Source of the DNA: Candidatus Nanoarchaeia archaeon
GTDB lineage: Archaea > Nanobdellota > Nanobdellia > Pacearchaeales > GW2011-AR1
DNA length: 64,000 bases
Assembly (NCBI GenBank): GCA_028711165.1
Contig: JAQTST010000001.1
Span: 478,558 to 542,557, forward strand
Direction of reading: 5' to 3'
Shown: piece after piece, positions 21,412 through 48,392 of the stretch
How the letters are laid out: each line of letters begins with the position of its first letter
How positions within the stretch are numbered: the stretch's first letter is position 1
Program-made: the position numbers and the translations under genes
The notes under the pieces: model-generated
Told to the model about the DNA's origin: nothing
The model's database searches: none
The model's input: the letters and a program-made list of their open reading frames with translations, nothing else

Positions 21412-22389
21412 TTAGAAAAAATAGCCAAGAACTAATCCAAATAAAATTCCGCCTGTTATGAAAGGCATTGCGGGGTAGAATTTCTTTTTTTCTGAAAACA
21501 TGAATAATAATGCCAACCCCAAAGTTGCCCCGACGATAACAAAGATAGCGGGAATCAATCCTCCCGTGAAAATCAAACCAAAAGGAAGATTTACCGACGC
21601 TGTTTTTAAAATAACTCCTGCAGTGATTAACGGGAATACAACGTCTCCGCCGCCGAGGATTGCAACATTGACTTTTATCTTTTTATGTTTAACTTTTAAT
21701 TTTTTCATTTTCTTGATTCTCATTCTTATTTTTCTGGAAATATAGGGGACAAAAAATCCTGAGAAGACTTTCATATTATTGATTTGATATTTTGCCATTT
21801 TTTGCATGATTCCTGAATGCCAGACTGCCCATATGTCATAAATTGAGATAAGAAGCAATAAAACAAGTATAGACCAGAAGTTTAATATTGGAACAAAAAT
21901 GGTTGCAATTCCTGGATATATCAAAAGTTCTGTAAAGTTGTGAACAATGAAATTTTTTCCAAACACCTTAAGAAAAGCCAGAGAAATTGAAATGATTGCG
22001 GGGATAGTATAGTAAATAATCGGATTAAGAAAATAAATAAATTCCGGAAGAAGCGCAGTGAAAGACAAAGTTAATGCAATCGCGACGACGGCAAAGAACC
22101 AGATTCTAAGAATAAAAGCAACTTTAAATTTTGTCAGAAGGAATAATATTATCACTGCAAAAATAAATGCAAGAACAATTGAACTGAAATAAACACCGAA
22201 ATCAGATTCTTCTTCAACTTCGGGAGGCTGAATCCATGACAGCGCTGAATTTTCTGTTGTCTCGATTGTTCCGTTGGATAATGTTTGTGAAATGCTAAAC
22301 GGGTCTGATGTTATAATGTATAATCCGATTAATTGCGTGGCTACGAACATTGCCAGCAACAGAATTGTCATAGGAATATTATGCTTCAT
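21412..22389 (-). CDS. Presenilin/signal peptide peptidase-like intramembrane aspartyl protease (A22 family)
   Basis: LLISIYDIWAVWHSG (YD) and AILGGGDVVFPLITAG (GxGD) plus C-terminal YPAMPF. Confidence 0.82.
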   Translation of the reverse strand: MKHNIPMTILLLAMFVATQLIGLYIITSDPFSISQTLSNGTIETTENSALSWIQPPEVEEESDFGVYFSSIVLAFIFAVIILFLLTKFKVAFILRIWFFAVVAIALTLSFTALLPEFIYFLNPIIYYTIPAIISISLAFLKVFGKNFIVHNFTELLIYPGIATIFVPILNFWSILVLLLLISIYDIWAVWHSGIMQKMAKYQINNMKVFSGFFVPYISRKIRMRIKKMKKLKVKHKKIKVNVAILGGGDVVFPLITAGVILKTASVNLPFGLIFTGGLIPAIFVIVGATLGLALLFMFSEKKKFYPAMPFITGGILFGLVLGYFF

Positions 22390-22392
22390 TTG

Positions 22393-22455
22393 TAAGACAC
22401 CTCCGGTTTCTTGACACTCAATTTCCCACTAAATTTGTGCTCACGGCTGATTATC
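22393..22455. repeat. Dispersed ~60-bp repeat, copy A
   Basis: TAAGACACCTCCGGTTTCTTGACACTCAATTTCCCACTAAATTTGTGCTCACGGCTGATTATC; aligns with copies at 23998, 43885, 45763. Confidence 0.75.
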
Positions 22456-22504
22456 ACCAATTTCATTACAGAAAAATGCAAAAGAAGTTTTTAAATTATA
22501 TCAA

Positions 22505-23899
22505 TCAATCACCGCGGGAAAGGTAAAGATATCCGCTATAAACAGCTGCCGTTTGAGTTATCCCGTCGGAAGACATTGCTATAGCATACCAAAGCCTGTT
22601 GGTGCTTTTTGGAGTCCAGGTATTTCCGTAATCAGTAGAAATATAAATTCTTCCCGGAACAGATACAGTGCCTGAATCTACTGCTGTCTGAATTCTGCCG
22701 TCGGAAGACATTGCAACATCCATCCAATTTCTATTGCTTTCTTTTGCTGTCCATGTTTCTCCAGAGTCTGAAGAAATATAAATTTTACCGGTAGAGGTAG
22801 AGGTACCAACAATTGCAGTTTGATATTTGCCGTCGGAAGACATTGCAATTCCTGAAAGATAATATGCTGCTGTTGAGTTGGAATACTTTTTAGTCCAAGT
22901 TGCTCCTAAATTTTTAGAAACATAAATTCCATTATTAGCGCCGCTGGCAACTGCAGTCATAATTGCCCCGTCGGAAGACATTGCAATTCCATTCCAGGAA
23001 TTTTTACTTATGTTTCTAACAGCCCAGTTATTCCCATAATCAGTAGAAGCATAAATTCTGTAATTTCCGCTGCTTTCATATACAACTGCAAATTGATTTA
23101 TTCCGGTTGGAGACATTGTTATTCTTGAGGGAGTAAGCGAAGTTCCGCCATTGAATTTGACAGTCCATGTATTTCCGTAATCTGTAGAAACATAAATATA
23201 TTGATAAGCGCCTCCACTACCTGCTGTTGTCTGATATCTACCGTCGGAAGACATTGCAACATCCTGCCCTATCCAATATTCAGCAGAAGGTTTACCTACC
23301 CAAGTATTTCCATAATCTGAAGAAACATAAGTCCTATTGGGATTGGTGCTATAAGAACCATAAGCTCCAACTGCTGTCTGATATCTGCCGTCGGAAGACA
23401 TTGTTATTGCTCTCCATTCTTTGTAGGCTGATTTCTGAGTCCAGTTACTCCAAGAGTAGCATAATCTTCCTGCATCAATCGCATCCTGCAAACTCATGTT
23501 AACACTAGTAATTACGACTTCAAGTTCAGTTGCATAATGGTAAGCATTGCTCTTGTTAGTCGGGCCAGTGTATCCTTTTTGTTTTAAACTTGCAGGGCAT
23601 AGTCTATTTGCCGACGACAAAGCCTGAAGCAAACTCATTTCCCCATCCTGAACAGAAACCCAGATTTCACTCACGTTATGTCCTGGGTCCATAGGCAGAG
23701 AAACACCATAAGTGTGAGACCAGCCTTTTAGTAAATTATTTTCAACAGCATATGTCATATCTCTTACAGTTCCGTCGACATTAACTGAAACGTCAGAATC
23801 TGAGTGCCATTTAGCTGTCTTATCAACAACAGCAGTAACAAAAAGAATTCCTACAATAGTTATCATCAATCCTATTATCACATAGACACTCTTTTTCAT
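22505..23899 (-). CDS. Membrane-anchored BNR/sialidase-like beta-propeller surface protein
   Basis: Tandem AMSSDGRYQTA…IYVSTDYGNTWT repeats; N-terminal TM helix. Confidence 0.8.
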   Translation of the reverse strand: MKKSVYVIIGLMITIVGILFVTAVVDKTAKWHSDSDVSVNVDGTVRDMTYAVENNLLKGWSHTYGVSLPMDPGHNVSEIWVSVQDGEMSLLQALSSANRLCPASLKQKGYTGPTNKSNAYHYATELEVVITSVNMSLQDAIDAGRLCYSWSNWTQKSAYKEWRAITMSSDGRYQTAVGAYGSYSTNPNRTYVSSDYGNTWVGKPSAEYWIGQDVAMSSDGRYQTTAGSGGAYQYIYVSTDYGNTWTVKFNGGTSLTPSRITMSPTGINQFAVVYESSGNYRIYASTDYGNNWAVRNISKNSWNGIAMSSDGAIMTAVASGANNGIYVSKNLGATWTKKYSNSTAAYYLSGIAMSSDGKYQTAIVGTSTSTGKIYISSDSGETWTAKESNRNWMDVAMSSDGRIQTAVDSGTVSVPGRIYISTDYGNTWTPKSTNRLWYAIAMSSDGITQTAAVYSGYLYLSRGD

Positions 23900-23947
23900 A
23901 CAGAAATAAATAATTTGATAATTATAAATTTATCTAGACTAAAAGAT

Positions 23948-23998
23948 TTATCTCAATCTTAAAGTTTCCAACACTCTTGGAACATTAGTTTCAATTGT
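23948..23998 (-). pseudogene. Duplicate of the aCPSF1 3' end
   Basis: Minus strand encodes IETNVPRVLETLRLR*, identical to the aCPSF1 C-terminus, with synonymous nucleotide differences. Confidence 0.85.
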
Positions 23999-24058
23999 AA
24001 GGCAACCAAGGTTTCCTTGACATTCAACTTTCCTTTAAAATTCGCTCAAGGCTGATAA
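23998..24058. repeat. Dispersed ~60-bp repeat, copy B
   Basis: TAAGGCAACCAAGGTTTCCTTGACATTCAACTTTCCTTTAAAATTCGCTCAAGGCTGATAA. Confidence 0.75.
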
Positions 24059-24070
24059 ATTCTGAAATAA

Positions 24071-25954
24071 TTATCTTAACCTCAAAGTCTCTAAAACTCT
24101 CGGAACATTAGTTTCAATCCTATTCAGCTTGTAAAGTGCAGAAGCCAAGTCGAGGCATTTTGAAACTTCTCCGTGATTGATAATTGCACGTTTTGTTTTT
24201 GGACGCATGTTGTTGAAAAAAGAAATCAGCTCGTTTCTTCCTGCGTGGGCACTGAAGCCTGTTATCGTGTTTACTTCCATTTCTATTTTCACTACTTCTT
24301 CTTTTCCGTCGATAATCATTCGCGTTTCTCTAATTCCATCCTGAACATTTCTTCCGAGAGAGCCGACTCCCTGATAACATACGAAGATTATTGAGTTGTT
24401 TTTATTTGATGCAAATTCCCTGAAATATTCTACTGATGCTCCGCCCATTAACATACCAGAAGTTGCGAGGACGATGCAGGGGCCTCCCTCGATGACTGCT
24501 CTTCTTTCCTGAGAAGAACCGACTCTCTGAAAATATTCTGATACAAAAGGATTTTTGTCTGCGAAAACATTTGACTTAACCTGGCTGCTCAAAAAGTCTG
24601 GGTAGGCTGTGTGAATTGCGTTGATATCCCAAATCATTCCGTCGATATAAATCGGGACAGGTTTTAATTTTCCTGAAGCCATTGCATCCTCGAGGACTAA
24701 CATTGTTTCCTGCGCTCTTCCAAGCCCTAATTCCGGAATCAAAACTTTTCCGTTTCTCTCGATTGTCTTGTTTACTAAATCAAGCAGTTTTTCTTCTGTC
24801 TCTGCTCTCGGTGGGAAAATATCTGTCTTTGCTCCGTAAGTTGATTCTGTGATTACAGTTTCTATTCTCGGGTAAGACGCGATTGCAGGGTCGAGAAGTC
24901 TTGAACGCGCGTATTTGAAATCTCCTGTGTAAAGAAGATTGTGCAGTCCGTTTCCGATGTTGAGATGAACCTGTGCTCCGCCCAAAACGTGTCCTGAATT
25001 GTAAAATGTCAATCTCACGTCGGGAGTTATGTCTGTGACTTCGTTGTAATTCAGGCAAATGCTGTGCTTTACCATTTCTTTAATGTCTGTAGAATCAAAG
25101 AGAGGTTTTGTTGCCTGCTTGTATGCGACGCCGATGAAATCCAAAGAAAGCAATGCAGCGATATCTCTCGACGGAGGAGTCATGTAAACCGGGCCTTTGT
25201 AACCCATTTTGTAAAGATAAGGCAAAAGTCCGACGTGGTCGAGGTGAGCGTGGGAAATTATTATCGCATCCAATTGGTTTAAATTAAATTCTGGAACATC
25301 AAGGTAAGGAAATTTGTCTGAGCCCTGCGATGCGACATCAATTCCGCAATCGAGGAGAATTTTTGAATTTGGCGTCTGCAAAAGGATACAGCTTCTTCCA
25401 ACCTGTCTTCCGCCACCGAGGAAAGTTAATCTTACCCACTCGTCGACTTTTTCAGGGTTCCATTCCTTGTAAATTTTCTGCCCGATAGAGTTAAGGAATT
25501 TTCTTCTGTAATTATTATTTGCATAAAGAACTTCACGAATGTTTTCTGTGATTTTGCTTTTTATTGCAGAACTTCGCTGAACCTGAGGAGTCCACAAGGT
25601 TGTTTTTTTAATTTCATCGAGGATGCTTCCCTGCTTTCCGATAACCATTCCAGGACGTTTTGCTTCGACGACGACGATACTTCGCTGAACATCAAAAATT
25701 ATGTTTGTGATTTCTGCTTCTTCTGGAACGATTTTTCTTATCTCTTTATCAGTTGCTTCCTGCGTGAGAAGTATTTTCTCGTCGGCACGAAGTTCGATTC
25801 TTTTTTTCACCTGGTCGACGATTCCTTTTATTTTTGATTCGCCTTCCCTGAAAAATTTGGCGTTGTCAGTGTAAAGAACTATGTTTGCTCCTTCGAAACT
25901 TGCGTCAGTTATACTCTCGTGCAACTGGTCTGTAATTTGTTTTAAAATATCCAT
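24071..25954 (-). CDS. Archaeal CPSF-like KH/beta-CASP ribonuclease aCPSF1 (FttA)
   Basis: N-terminal KH-like region, GGGRQVGRSC, SHAHLDHVGLLPYL, beta-CASP motifs, GFSAHAGR. Confidence 0.95.
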   Translation of the reverse strand: MDILKQITDQLHESITDASFEGANIVLYTDNAKFFREGESKIKGIVDQVKKRIELRADEKILLTQEATDKEIRKIVPEEAEITNIIFDVQRSIVVVEAKRPGMVIGKQGSILDEIKKTTLWTPQVQRSSAIKSKITENIREVLYANNNYRRKFLNSIGQKIYKEWNPEKVDEWVRLTFLGGGRQVGRSCILLQTPNSKILLDCGIDVASQGSDKFPYLDVPEFNLNQLDAIIISHAHLDHVGLLPYLYKMGYKGPVYMTPPSRDIAALLSLDFIGVAYKQATKPLFDSTDIKEMVKHSICLNYNEVTDITPDVRLTFYNSGHVLGGAQVHLNIGNGLHNLLYTGDFKYARSRLLDPAIASYPRIETVITESTYGAKTDIFPPRAETEEKLLDLVNKTIERNGKVLIPELGLGRAQETMLVLEDAMASGKLKPVPIYIDGMIWDINAIHTAYPDFLSSQVKSNVFADKNPFVSEYFQRVGSSQERRAVIEGGPCIVLATSGMLMGGASVEYFREFASNKNNSIIFVCYQGVGSLGRNVQDGIRETRMIIDGKEEVVKIEMEVNTITGFSAHAGRNELISFFNNMRPKTKRAIINHGEVSKCLDLASALYKLNRIETNVPRVLETLRLR

Positions 25955-25979
25955 CTTTATTATTTTTATTTTAGTAGAA

Positions 25980-26639
25980 TTAGTCTTCTCTGAATGAAGG
26001 TTGAATTTCCTGCGACACCACTTTTTTTATCCCCTGTTTAGTTATTGTAAAAACATCGATTCCGAAACCGCTTCCCATATCTCTTTGAGTTGAAGATTTT
26101 ATTGATTCTGTTGCTAATTTAATTCCTTCATCTAAGGAAATTCCTTTTTTATATTGTCTTTCTAAAAATCCCAAGACAAAAGGCATACCTGAACCGAAAT
26201 TAGCGTCGTAATCTTCGACTAAATTCAAAGTTCCTGCCGGTTCGATTGTGTACAATTCAACAGCTCCGTCTTCGTTAAAACCTCCGATTAAAAATCCTGC
26301 CTGCATTGGAATCATCGAGGGCTGTCTTATTCCCGAATATAAAATTGTTGAAAGCAAATTTGCTGCCTGTCTGACAGAAGGGCGAGTTTTTGAACGAAGC
26401 TCTTTCAGTTTCAATTCTGCTGGGAGAATTTTTTCAACTTTTCTTATGTCTGAAGCAATTCCGCATCCAGAAATCACGAGGTAATCATTAATCTTGACAC
26501 TCTTTTGCGCCTTTTTGTCCATCACCAAAGTTCCTGCAGAAGTTTGCCTGTCAGAAGCGATTACAACTCCGTCTTTGCAGACAATTCCCAGAATAGTTGT
26601 CCCTGTTTTAAGTATTGAATTTTTTAATTCAGCATCCAT
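25980..26639 (-). CDS. psmB: Proteasome beta subunit
   Basis: KTG|TTILGIVCKDGVVIASDRQTSAG with propeptide and catalytic Thr. Confidence 0.95.
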   Translation of the reverse strand: MDAELKNSILKTGTTILGIVCKDGVVIASDRQTSAGTLVMDKKAQKSVKINDYLVISGCGIASDIRKVEKILPAELKLKELRSKTRPSVRQAANLLSTILYSGIRQPSMIPMQAGFLIGGFNEDGAVELYTIEPAGTLNLVEDYDANFGSGMPFVLGFLERQYKKGISLDEGIKLATESIKSSTQRDMGSGFGIDVFTITKQGIKKVVSQEIQPSFRED

Positions 26640-42954: not shown

Positions 42955-43881
42955 ATGGCTGGAAAAAAGAAATCAGAAACCGAAGAAACAGAAGAAGAAA
43001 TACTCGAAGATATTGAAGAAAGTGGAGTTCCTGAAAAAATTGCGAAGGAAGAAGAGAAGCTTGATGAAAAGGCAGAAGAAGAATTTGAAAAGAAAGCTGA
43101 AGCTGAATCTACTACTGAAGAAAAAGAACTTGAAGAGAAAAAGAAAAAACTTCTTGAAAAAGTTAAAAAATTAAAAGAAAAGATTTCTGAGGAGGAAGTT
43201 AGCACAGAAGAACTTAAGGAAAAAGTTAAAGTCAAAAAAAGAACTGACATGCTTGTTCCGCTCGAGGAATATGTCAAAGCAGGAATTTACCTTGGAACCA
43301 GAGTTGTTACTCCGAGCATGAAGCCGTTCGTTTACAGAAGAAGAGCTGACGGGCTTGCTATCTTCAACACAGATATTATCGACGAGAAATTGAAAGAAGG
43401 AATTGAATATCTTGCAAATTTTGCTCCTGAAGATATTATTCTTGTATGCAGAAGACAATCTGGCTGGAAGACTGCACAGATGTTTTCAAAACTTACCGGA
43501 ATAAAAGTTTTCACAAAAAAATATCCTGCCGGAATTTTGACAAACACAAGACTTCCTGATTTTTTCGAGAACGAGCTTACAATTGTCTGCGACTCGTGGC
43601 TTGACAAAAACGCACTCAATGACACATTGAATGTTCATAAAAAAGTTTTGATGATTTGCGACACAAACAATTTCGCAAGAGGCGCTGACAAAATAGTTAT
43701 CGGAAACAACAAAAGTCCAAAAAGTCTGGGATTGATTTTCTATCTTCTTGCAAGAGGTTACTGCAAAGCCAGAGGAATTGAAGCAGACATTCCTGATATG
43801 GAATGGTGGACAAGCGAGGAAGAAATTAAAGAATCTACTGAAGAAAAATTAGAAAGAGTTGAAGCAGAGTTTGGTGTTTAA
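42955..43881 (+). CDS. rps2: 30S ribosomal protein S2 with charged N-terminal extension
   Basis: PLEEYVKAGIYLGTRVVTPSMKPFVYRRRADGLAIFNTDIIDEKL; first ~80 aa Glu/Lys-rich. Confidence 0.95.
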   Translation: MAGKKKSETEETEEEILEDIEESGVPEKIAKEEEKLDEKAEEEFEKKAEAESTTEEKELEEKKKKLLEKVKKLKEKISEEEVSTEELKEKVKVKKRTDMLVPLEEYVKAGIYLGTRVVTPSMKPFVYRRRADGLAIFNTDIIDEKLKEGIEYLANFAPEDIILVCRRQSGWKTAQMFSKLTGIKVFTKKYPAGILTNTRLPDFFENELTIVCDSWLDKNALNDTLNVHKKVLMICDTNNFARGADKIVIGNNKSPKSLGLIFYLLARGYCKARGIEADIPDMEWWTSEEEIKESTEEKLERVEAEFGV

Positions 43882-43884
43882 GCG

Positions 43885-43945
43885 CAGACACCTAATCGGT
43901 TTCTTTCGCTTAATCTTCCCTTTAAATTTGGGTCACGCCTGATAA
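43885..43945. repeat. Dispersed ~60-bp repeat, copy C
   Basis: CAGACACCTAATCGGTTTCTTTCGCTTAATCTTCCCTTTAAATTTGGGTCACGCCTGATAA directly after the rps2 stop. Confidence 0.85.
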
Positions 43946-45360: not shown

Positions 45361-45876
45361 CTAATCGATTTTAAAAAATAACCATCCATTCTTCTTTCCG
45401 CCGTAGGAAGTTTTGATTAACGCGTATTTTCCTTTCAGCTTTTTTCCGTGAATGTCGACGATAATCTTGGTAGGATTTTTTTCAATCAGATTATATTTTC
45501 CGCTGTCCCAGATTAAAACTTTCCCTGCTCCGTAATTTCCTTCAGGGATTGTTCCGTGGAATTTTGCATAAGCAAGCGGGTGGTCCTCGACGTTAATTGC
45601 AAGTCGTTTTGTTCCTTTTGCAGTAGGTGGTGATTTTGGAACTGCCCAAGATTTCAGAACGCCGTTCATTTCAAGACGCAAATCCCAATGCAAATGCGAC
45701 GCGTGATGCTCGTGAATTAAATAAATTAATTTTTTTCCAGGAGATTTTTTTATCGACGCTGCGAGGACACCTAATCGGTTTCCTTCGCTTAATCTTCCCC
45801 TTGAATTTGTGGTCACGCCTGGTGGCTCTTTGCTCGACGACAAATTCCTCTTTTTTTTGTATTCTCCGAGGGACAT
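45361..45876 (-). CDS. LigD-type 3'-phosphoesterase domain protein
   Basis: LIHEHHASHLHWDLRLEMNGVLKSWAVPKSPP … HPLAYAKFHGTIPEGNYGAG. Confidence 0.92.
   Translation of the reverse strand: MSLGEYKKKRNLSSSKEPPGVTTNSRGRLSEGNRLGVLAASIKKSPGKKLIYLIHEHHASHLHWDLRLEMNGVLKSWAVPKSPPTAKGTKRLAINVEDHPLAYAKFHGTIPEGNYGAGKVLIWDSGKYNLIEKNPTKIIVDIHGKKLKGKYALIKTSYGGKKNGWLFFKID
45763..45820. repeat. Dispersed ~60-bp repeat, copy D (inside ligD-like CDS)
   Basis: AGGACACCTAATCGGTTTCCTTCGCTTAATCTTCCCCTTGAATTTGTGGTCACGCCTG, near-identical to copy C. Confidence 0.85.
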
Positions 45877-48192: not shown

Positions 48193-48392
48193 TTTGTTCT
48201 GTTGTAAAATAAATCACACATCATATTCATTGTAAAAAGAACTAATCGTTCTTCTTACGACATCTCCCTTGAGATTGCCTCAGGGGTGATAATGAACTTC
48301 AGAGATGAAGTAAAAAATCACGACGACAAAGTCGTCACCATCGTCGGTGAGAGAACAAAATCTCTTATCGCTTTGAGAGTTTATACTCAATG

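Follow-up and report, generated by a model that had tools for sequence, protein, structure and literature searches.

aCPSF1 locus and its second 3' end

The stretch of DNA analysed here, termed the window throughout, has a length of 64,000 nt and corresponds to positions 478558-542557 of contig C3 of G000, a draft genome of 637 kb with a completeness of approximately 89%, the nearest named relatives being Candidatus Pacearchaeota. The minus strand of the window carries the gene of aCPSF1 (FttA), which is an essential transcription-termination gene and belongs here to a tiny uncultured archaeon. The features of the locus, in the direction of transcription, are the following:

24071-25954, minus strand: intact aCPSF1/FttA ORF of 627 aa ending in tail 1, with FttA KH (KH_TffA), metallo-beta-lactamase (Lactamase_B_6), beta-CASP (Beta-Casp) and RMMBL domains (Pfam)
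24071-24118, minus strand: tail 1, the final 15 codons and stop codon of the working gene (ATT GAA ACT ... AGA TAA)
24059-24070, minus strand: spacer of 12 nt (TTATTTCAGAAT) from the stop codon to repeat B, without a TATA-like promoter
23996-24058, minus strand: repeat B, one copy of a hairpin repeat family of approximately 63 nt (covariance model, 69.5 bits, E=7e-16)
23948-23995, minus strand: tail 2, a second aCPSF1 end, an untranslated remnant with protein-identical codons
22505-23899, minus strand: surface-protein gene directly downstream of tail 2, with an N-terminal membrane segment and BNR/Asp-box repeats
22391-22453, minus strand: repeat A, another member of this family, immediately upstream of the SPP start codon (67.4 bits)
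21412-22389, minus strand: SPP, a signal-peptide peptidase/presenilin-like protease (PF06550, E=2e-12; synteny)

The initial annotation of this DNA had described the 3' end of aCPSF1 as duplicated around repeat B, and our analysis confirmed it, with tails at 24071-24118 and 23948-23995. Within the window, the duplicated stretch covers 57 nt with 47 identical positions (E=2e-11), the likeness running approximately 9 nt beyond the stop codon. Both tails encode the same protein sequence, as had been stated, and the 'at least seven' synonymous differences reported at that time are exactly seven in 48 coding nt, all of them in third codon positions. The second copy, placed earlier at 23948-23998, is a real duplicate, with an upper limit that took in 3 nt of repeat B. 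The location of repeat B between the tails was likewise borne out: the 12-nt spacer separates it from tail 1, and tail 2 follows its 3' end without intervening nucleotides. The 75 nt between the tails, repeat B included, are gene-free, and tail 2 lacks a connection to any gene start.

Unoccupied sites in relatives

Comparison of aCPSF1 3' ends revealed a single tail without a repeat, i.e. an unoccupied site, in the closest relatives. All four other genomes of the genus that were examined are single-tailed, and tail 2 is not the end of a paralogous gene. In the closest relative (G003, locus L013; best segment, 95% protein identity), the nucleotides GATAAATTTATAATTATCA come immediately after the single tail, with a surface-protein gene next. 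This tail leads straight into the same promoter as tail 2 of the window, and the surface gene is a different relative of the one in the window. Since this layout is that found downstream of tail 2, both outer flanks in the window are native and the site between them is empty in relatives. Tail 2 differs from the G003 tail in 8 and tail 1 in 10 positions, a slight margin that is compatible with the import of either tail.

SPP is a conserved neighbour that comes after aCPSF1 in most relatives, and the interval between both genes varies: it is empty or contains surface genes, toxin-antitoxin-like genes or others. In G002, aCPSF1 is followed directly by a related repeat and then by SPP. It should be added that toxin-antitoxin-like genes (ParE, HEPN/nucleotidyltransferase) recur in this interval (L088, 5881-6410; L083; L087; L018), and it is possible that it represents a small defence or addiction hot spot.

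Double tails in other genera

Second tails were searched for in 80 aCPSF1 loci and then, with a degenerate tail pattern and complete per-genome counts, across 200 genomes from the order. Two further genera, represented by G132 (L090, JAUYDD010000024.1) and G079, turned out to have both complete tails in tandem on a single contig, with inserts of 96 and 116 nt, respectively, that differ from the insert in the window. All tail differences are synonymous in both cases (4/4 in G132, 5/5 in G079). In a further locus, L088 (JAGVWZ010000015.1), a ParE-type toxin gene, preceded by a small ORF, separates aCPSF1 from a second, exact copy of 21 nt of its tail, so that a toxin-antitoxin-like pair is flanked by a direct tail repeat. 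Gene-body segments of the same length from the same loci showed no such repeats.

The inserts of G132 and G079 were considered as dispersed repeats and rejected as such, each being single-copy in its own genome. Membership in the family of repeat B was rejected as well, with no match for the G132 insert and with only the first 15 nt of the repeat-like part of the G079 insert alike (8.3 bits). Both inserts (L090, 3832-3927; L233, 1250-1366) start right after the tail 1 stop codon with an inverted copy of the tail start, of 12 and 10 nt, correspondingly (p about 5e-5 each), and owing to it they can fold closed. The corresponding copy in the window has 5 nt (p=0.43) and, being no clear copy, was not used as evidence for this locus.

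Origin of the double tail

The two tails most likely stem from two different working genes, brought together by an insertion or a recombination event at the 3' end of aCPSF1. This end seems to be a place where foreign DNA lands repeatedly and brings a replacement tail of its own. In the fuller form of this reading, the gene end would act, within this archaeal family, as an attachment-like site of recurrent recombination, at which DNA with the tail of a related lineage was joined; we assign to it a probability of about one half, on account of the small samples and of the dependence on how changes are shared between the copies. Donor DNA with the aCPSF1 end of a related lineage would have joined the gene near ATTGAAACTAATGTTCC, and its synonymous tail would have kept aCPSF1 intact. 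The displaced tail would have stayed on the far side of the insert, the present remnant between the tails being the 75 nt with repeat B. Tail 1 would thus be the incoming one, imported from another lineage, and the joining would have been catalysed by a site-specific enzyme acting in trans or since lost. Double tails of this origin would be legible traces of past gene exchange among uncultured species.

An insertion at the aCPSF1 terminus that brought a replacement tail had been suggested in the initial annotation, and it is the best-supported reading, given what is observed directly, namely two tails with synonymous-only divergence, empty sites in relatives and repetition in other genera, and given the toxin-antitoxin-like pair with a direct tail repeat in L088. 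The inserting DNA proposed there was repeat B or something it once carried; the repeat is a passenger or marker rather than a proven cause of the double tail.

The pattern of differences bears on a purely local origin. If half of the differences had fallen on the untranslated copy, the probability of no amino-acid change would be 0.013, 0.053 and 0.069 in the three genomes with 48 nt each, values that come from small samples and vary with the way in which changes are split between the copies. Random decay of a local duplicate therefore fits poorly, as the non-coding copy should lose codons and yet the differences are only synonymous. They also shun the 5' part of the tails (combined p=0.0015), where a crossover core shared by both tails would lead one to expect few of them. 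Had repeat B been inserted with duplication of a 57-nt target, or had replication slipped, and had the copies then diverged in place, both outer flanks would be native, as they are; another copy of the repeat, L002, has a 34-nt AT-rich flanking duplication. This is the one other case among about 90 copies, and target-site duplication was therefore rejected as a general trait of the repeat. As the repeat as a rule duplicates no target, the aCPSF1 end, rather than the repeat, seems to account for the double tail. Moreover, divergence in place would have to yield seven synonymous differences out of seven despite one copy being untranslated, and to do so again in two other genera, hence we regard a local duplication as improbable.

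The main rival to the import of a replacement tail through an attachment-like site is illegitimate recombination between the start of SPP and a donor aCPSF1 tail, by which the surface gene would have been gained together with the donor tail, leaving the order tail 1, repeat, tail 2, cargo gene, repeat, SPP. The SPP start (ATGAAACAYAAT; window, ATGAAGCATAATATTCC) does resemble the tail start (RTTGAAACAAAT; window, ATTGAAACTAATGTTCC), a hairpin repeat is often found immediately in front of the SPP start codon (window, L028, L075, L016 and others), the window, G132 and G079 have their junction at one and the same codon, and all three right-hand parts have an extra gene before SPP. Such a crossover accounts equally well for the synonymous-only differences. 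Against it, the DNA between tail 1 and repeat B has no promoter, whereas ancestral-type intervals have one, repeat B is nearer to a copy beside a tRNA-Gly gene of G003 (93% over 60 nt) than to repeat A, and L088 is left unexplained. On balance, we consider a crossover at the SPP start unlikely, if still the foremost competitor.

An assembly chimera of two co-occurring strains has to be weighed for a draft genome of an uncultured organism, the more so as the G118 assembly contains two diverged aCPSF1 ends on separate contigs. The junction of repeat B and tail 2 offers no long identical stretch for an assembler to bridge, and two unrelated assemblies show the same layout; a chimera is thus highly improbable. 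The two G118 ends (contigs C46 and C12; L234 and L235) have approximately 75 nt in common before they diverge and reflect either a strain mixture or a longer tail exchange.

Relation to known integrative elements

Phage 21 and e14, both in the icd gene of Escherichia coli, exemplify integrative elements that attach at the 3' end of a protein-coding gene and bring along a replacement for its tail, and the kind of event considered here, elements in gene 3' ends, is already known. The locus shares with icd-type elements the duplicate 3' ends flanking an insert, the intact gene, the mostly silent differences and the repeated use of one gene end. It differs from them in the host gene, which is aCPSF1 in DPANN archaea, in the small size of the inserts (75-116 nt across the three full tandems), and in that no integrase or element body was found. 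The window has paired gene ends with a whole gene and a site unoccupied in relatives. We describe the double tail as working like a 3'-end integrative element and do not file it as one, because the insert is gene-free and no integrase match was obtained in G000.

Tyrosine recombinases (PF00589) gave no match in G000, at its completeness of approximately 89%, and neither recombinases of this type nor integrases were detected among 20 proteins encoded in the aCPSF1-SPP intervals of relatives; integrase-bearing islands between both genes were hence rejected for the proteins examined. No carrier of the aCPSF1 tail or of the repeat was found in the viral contigs scanned. In the literature searched, we did not find aCPSF1 as a site, such tiny inserts or the strand-polar repeat, and nothing published on repeats of Pacearchaeota/DPANN matched the family of repeat B.

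Structure and distribution of the repeat family

In the family of repeat B, the 5' arm is TTATCAGGCGTGACCCAAATTTAAAGGGAAG and the 3' part forms a hairpin, the outer pairs of which covary (TGT/ACA, GCG/CGC, CAA/TTG), with 38 doubly changed cells vs 18 in shuffles. Folded alone as a single strand, repeat B is not better than shuffles, so that the assignment of a hairpin rests on covariation between copies. A known RNA family was rejected for the region, as Rfam gave no match in 22500-26000 up to E=1. With the covariance model, copies were detected in 58 of 111 genomes of the taxonomic family. Besides repeats A and B, the window contains three of them:

43878-43945, minus strand: third confident copy (87.2 bits)
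45757-45825, minus strand: fourth confident copy, in frame in ORF 45361-45876 (75.8 bits)
48228-48292, minus strand: weaker, diverged copy (28.4 bits, E=2e-5)

Two groups of known repeats invite comparison. Rickettsia palindromic elements are small dispersed structured repeats found in intergenic regions, in frame in conserved genes and in RNA genes (PMC2229807), and palindromic coding repeats of Methanocaldococcus jannaschii are cited in the same article (Suyama et al. 2005, as cited in PMC2229807). As in Rickettsia, the family described here has in-frame copies in conserved genes that are repeat-free in relatives: the gene of ribosomal protein S15 has one in G003, and the insertion is absent from the four other genomes of the genus. 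In the window, ORF 45361-45876 also contains an in-frame copy. In contrast to the Rickettsia elements, the copies form no full palindrome with terminal inverted repeats, having one conserved hairpin in the 3' half and an unpaired 5' arm, and they are strictly strand-polar in the genus and abut tRNA ends and start codons. REP elements and the single-strand transposition of IS200-IS605 by Y1 enzymes involve small hairpins and a strand preference tied to single-stranded DNA (PMC6006769). Small hairpins and strand preference are found here too; unlike in those systems, the orientation of the repeat never switches along the 623-kb contig and the genus has no detected Y1 transposase. The Y1 HUH domain (PF01797) is absent from 5/5 genus genomes, and a Y1 transposase was therefore rejected as mobiliser of the repeat.

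Strand polarity and placement of the repeats

The strand polarity of the repeat and its placement at gene boundaries are a more surprising part of these data than the double tail. The 26 copies of G000 share one strand without exception (covariance model, E<=1e-4), and in the genus 46/46 copies are concordant in nine multi-copy contigs (7e-12 by coin toss); outside the genus, polarity is strong and not absolute. The orientation remains constant along the 623-kb contig. Gene orientation is not the cause, since coding sequence sampled along the contig is mostly on the strand opposite to the repeats. With regard to replication strand as a cause, rough GC-skew samples along the contig, too coarse to place an origin, revealed no halves with opposite repeat orientation. 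Such chromosome-wide polarity raises the testable question of how strand-specific elements spread in reduced genomes.

Copies adjoin start codons as well as either end of tRNA genes. It is tempting to see in these data a new archaeal mobile repeat system, in which a hairpin of approximately 63 nt would insert with fixed polarity at gene boundaries (tRNA ends, start codons and gene 3' ends), be tolerated in frame and have partner machinery that exchanges tails between lineages at the aCPSF1 3' end; we consider this proposal speculative and rather doubtful.

Some individual placements should be added. Copies terminate precisely at a tRNA gene's 5' end, or at the 3' end of an opposite-strand tRNA gene, in L010, L100, L188, L110, L135 and L162, and further copies of this type are those of L174, L177, L176, L196, L197 and L199. 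In L160, L163 and L166, copies on either strand seem to break tRNA genes near the anticodon, and ARAGORN finds no tRNA there; these may be intron-like insertions. In-frame copies were noted in genes of a HIT-family protein, ribosomal protein S15, an uncharacterised protein (L136, L146, L151 of G003) and topoisomerase I (L011, G001), and the window ORF 45361-45876 resembles, by eye, a LigD phosphoesterase domain. The in-frame copies use different reading frames of the repeat.
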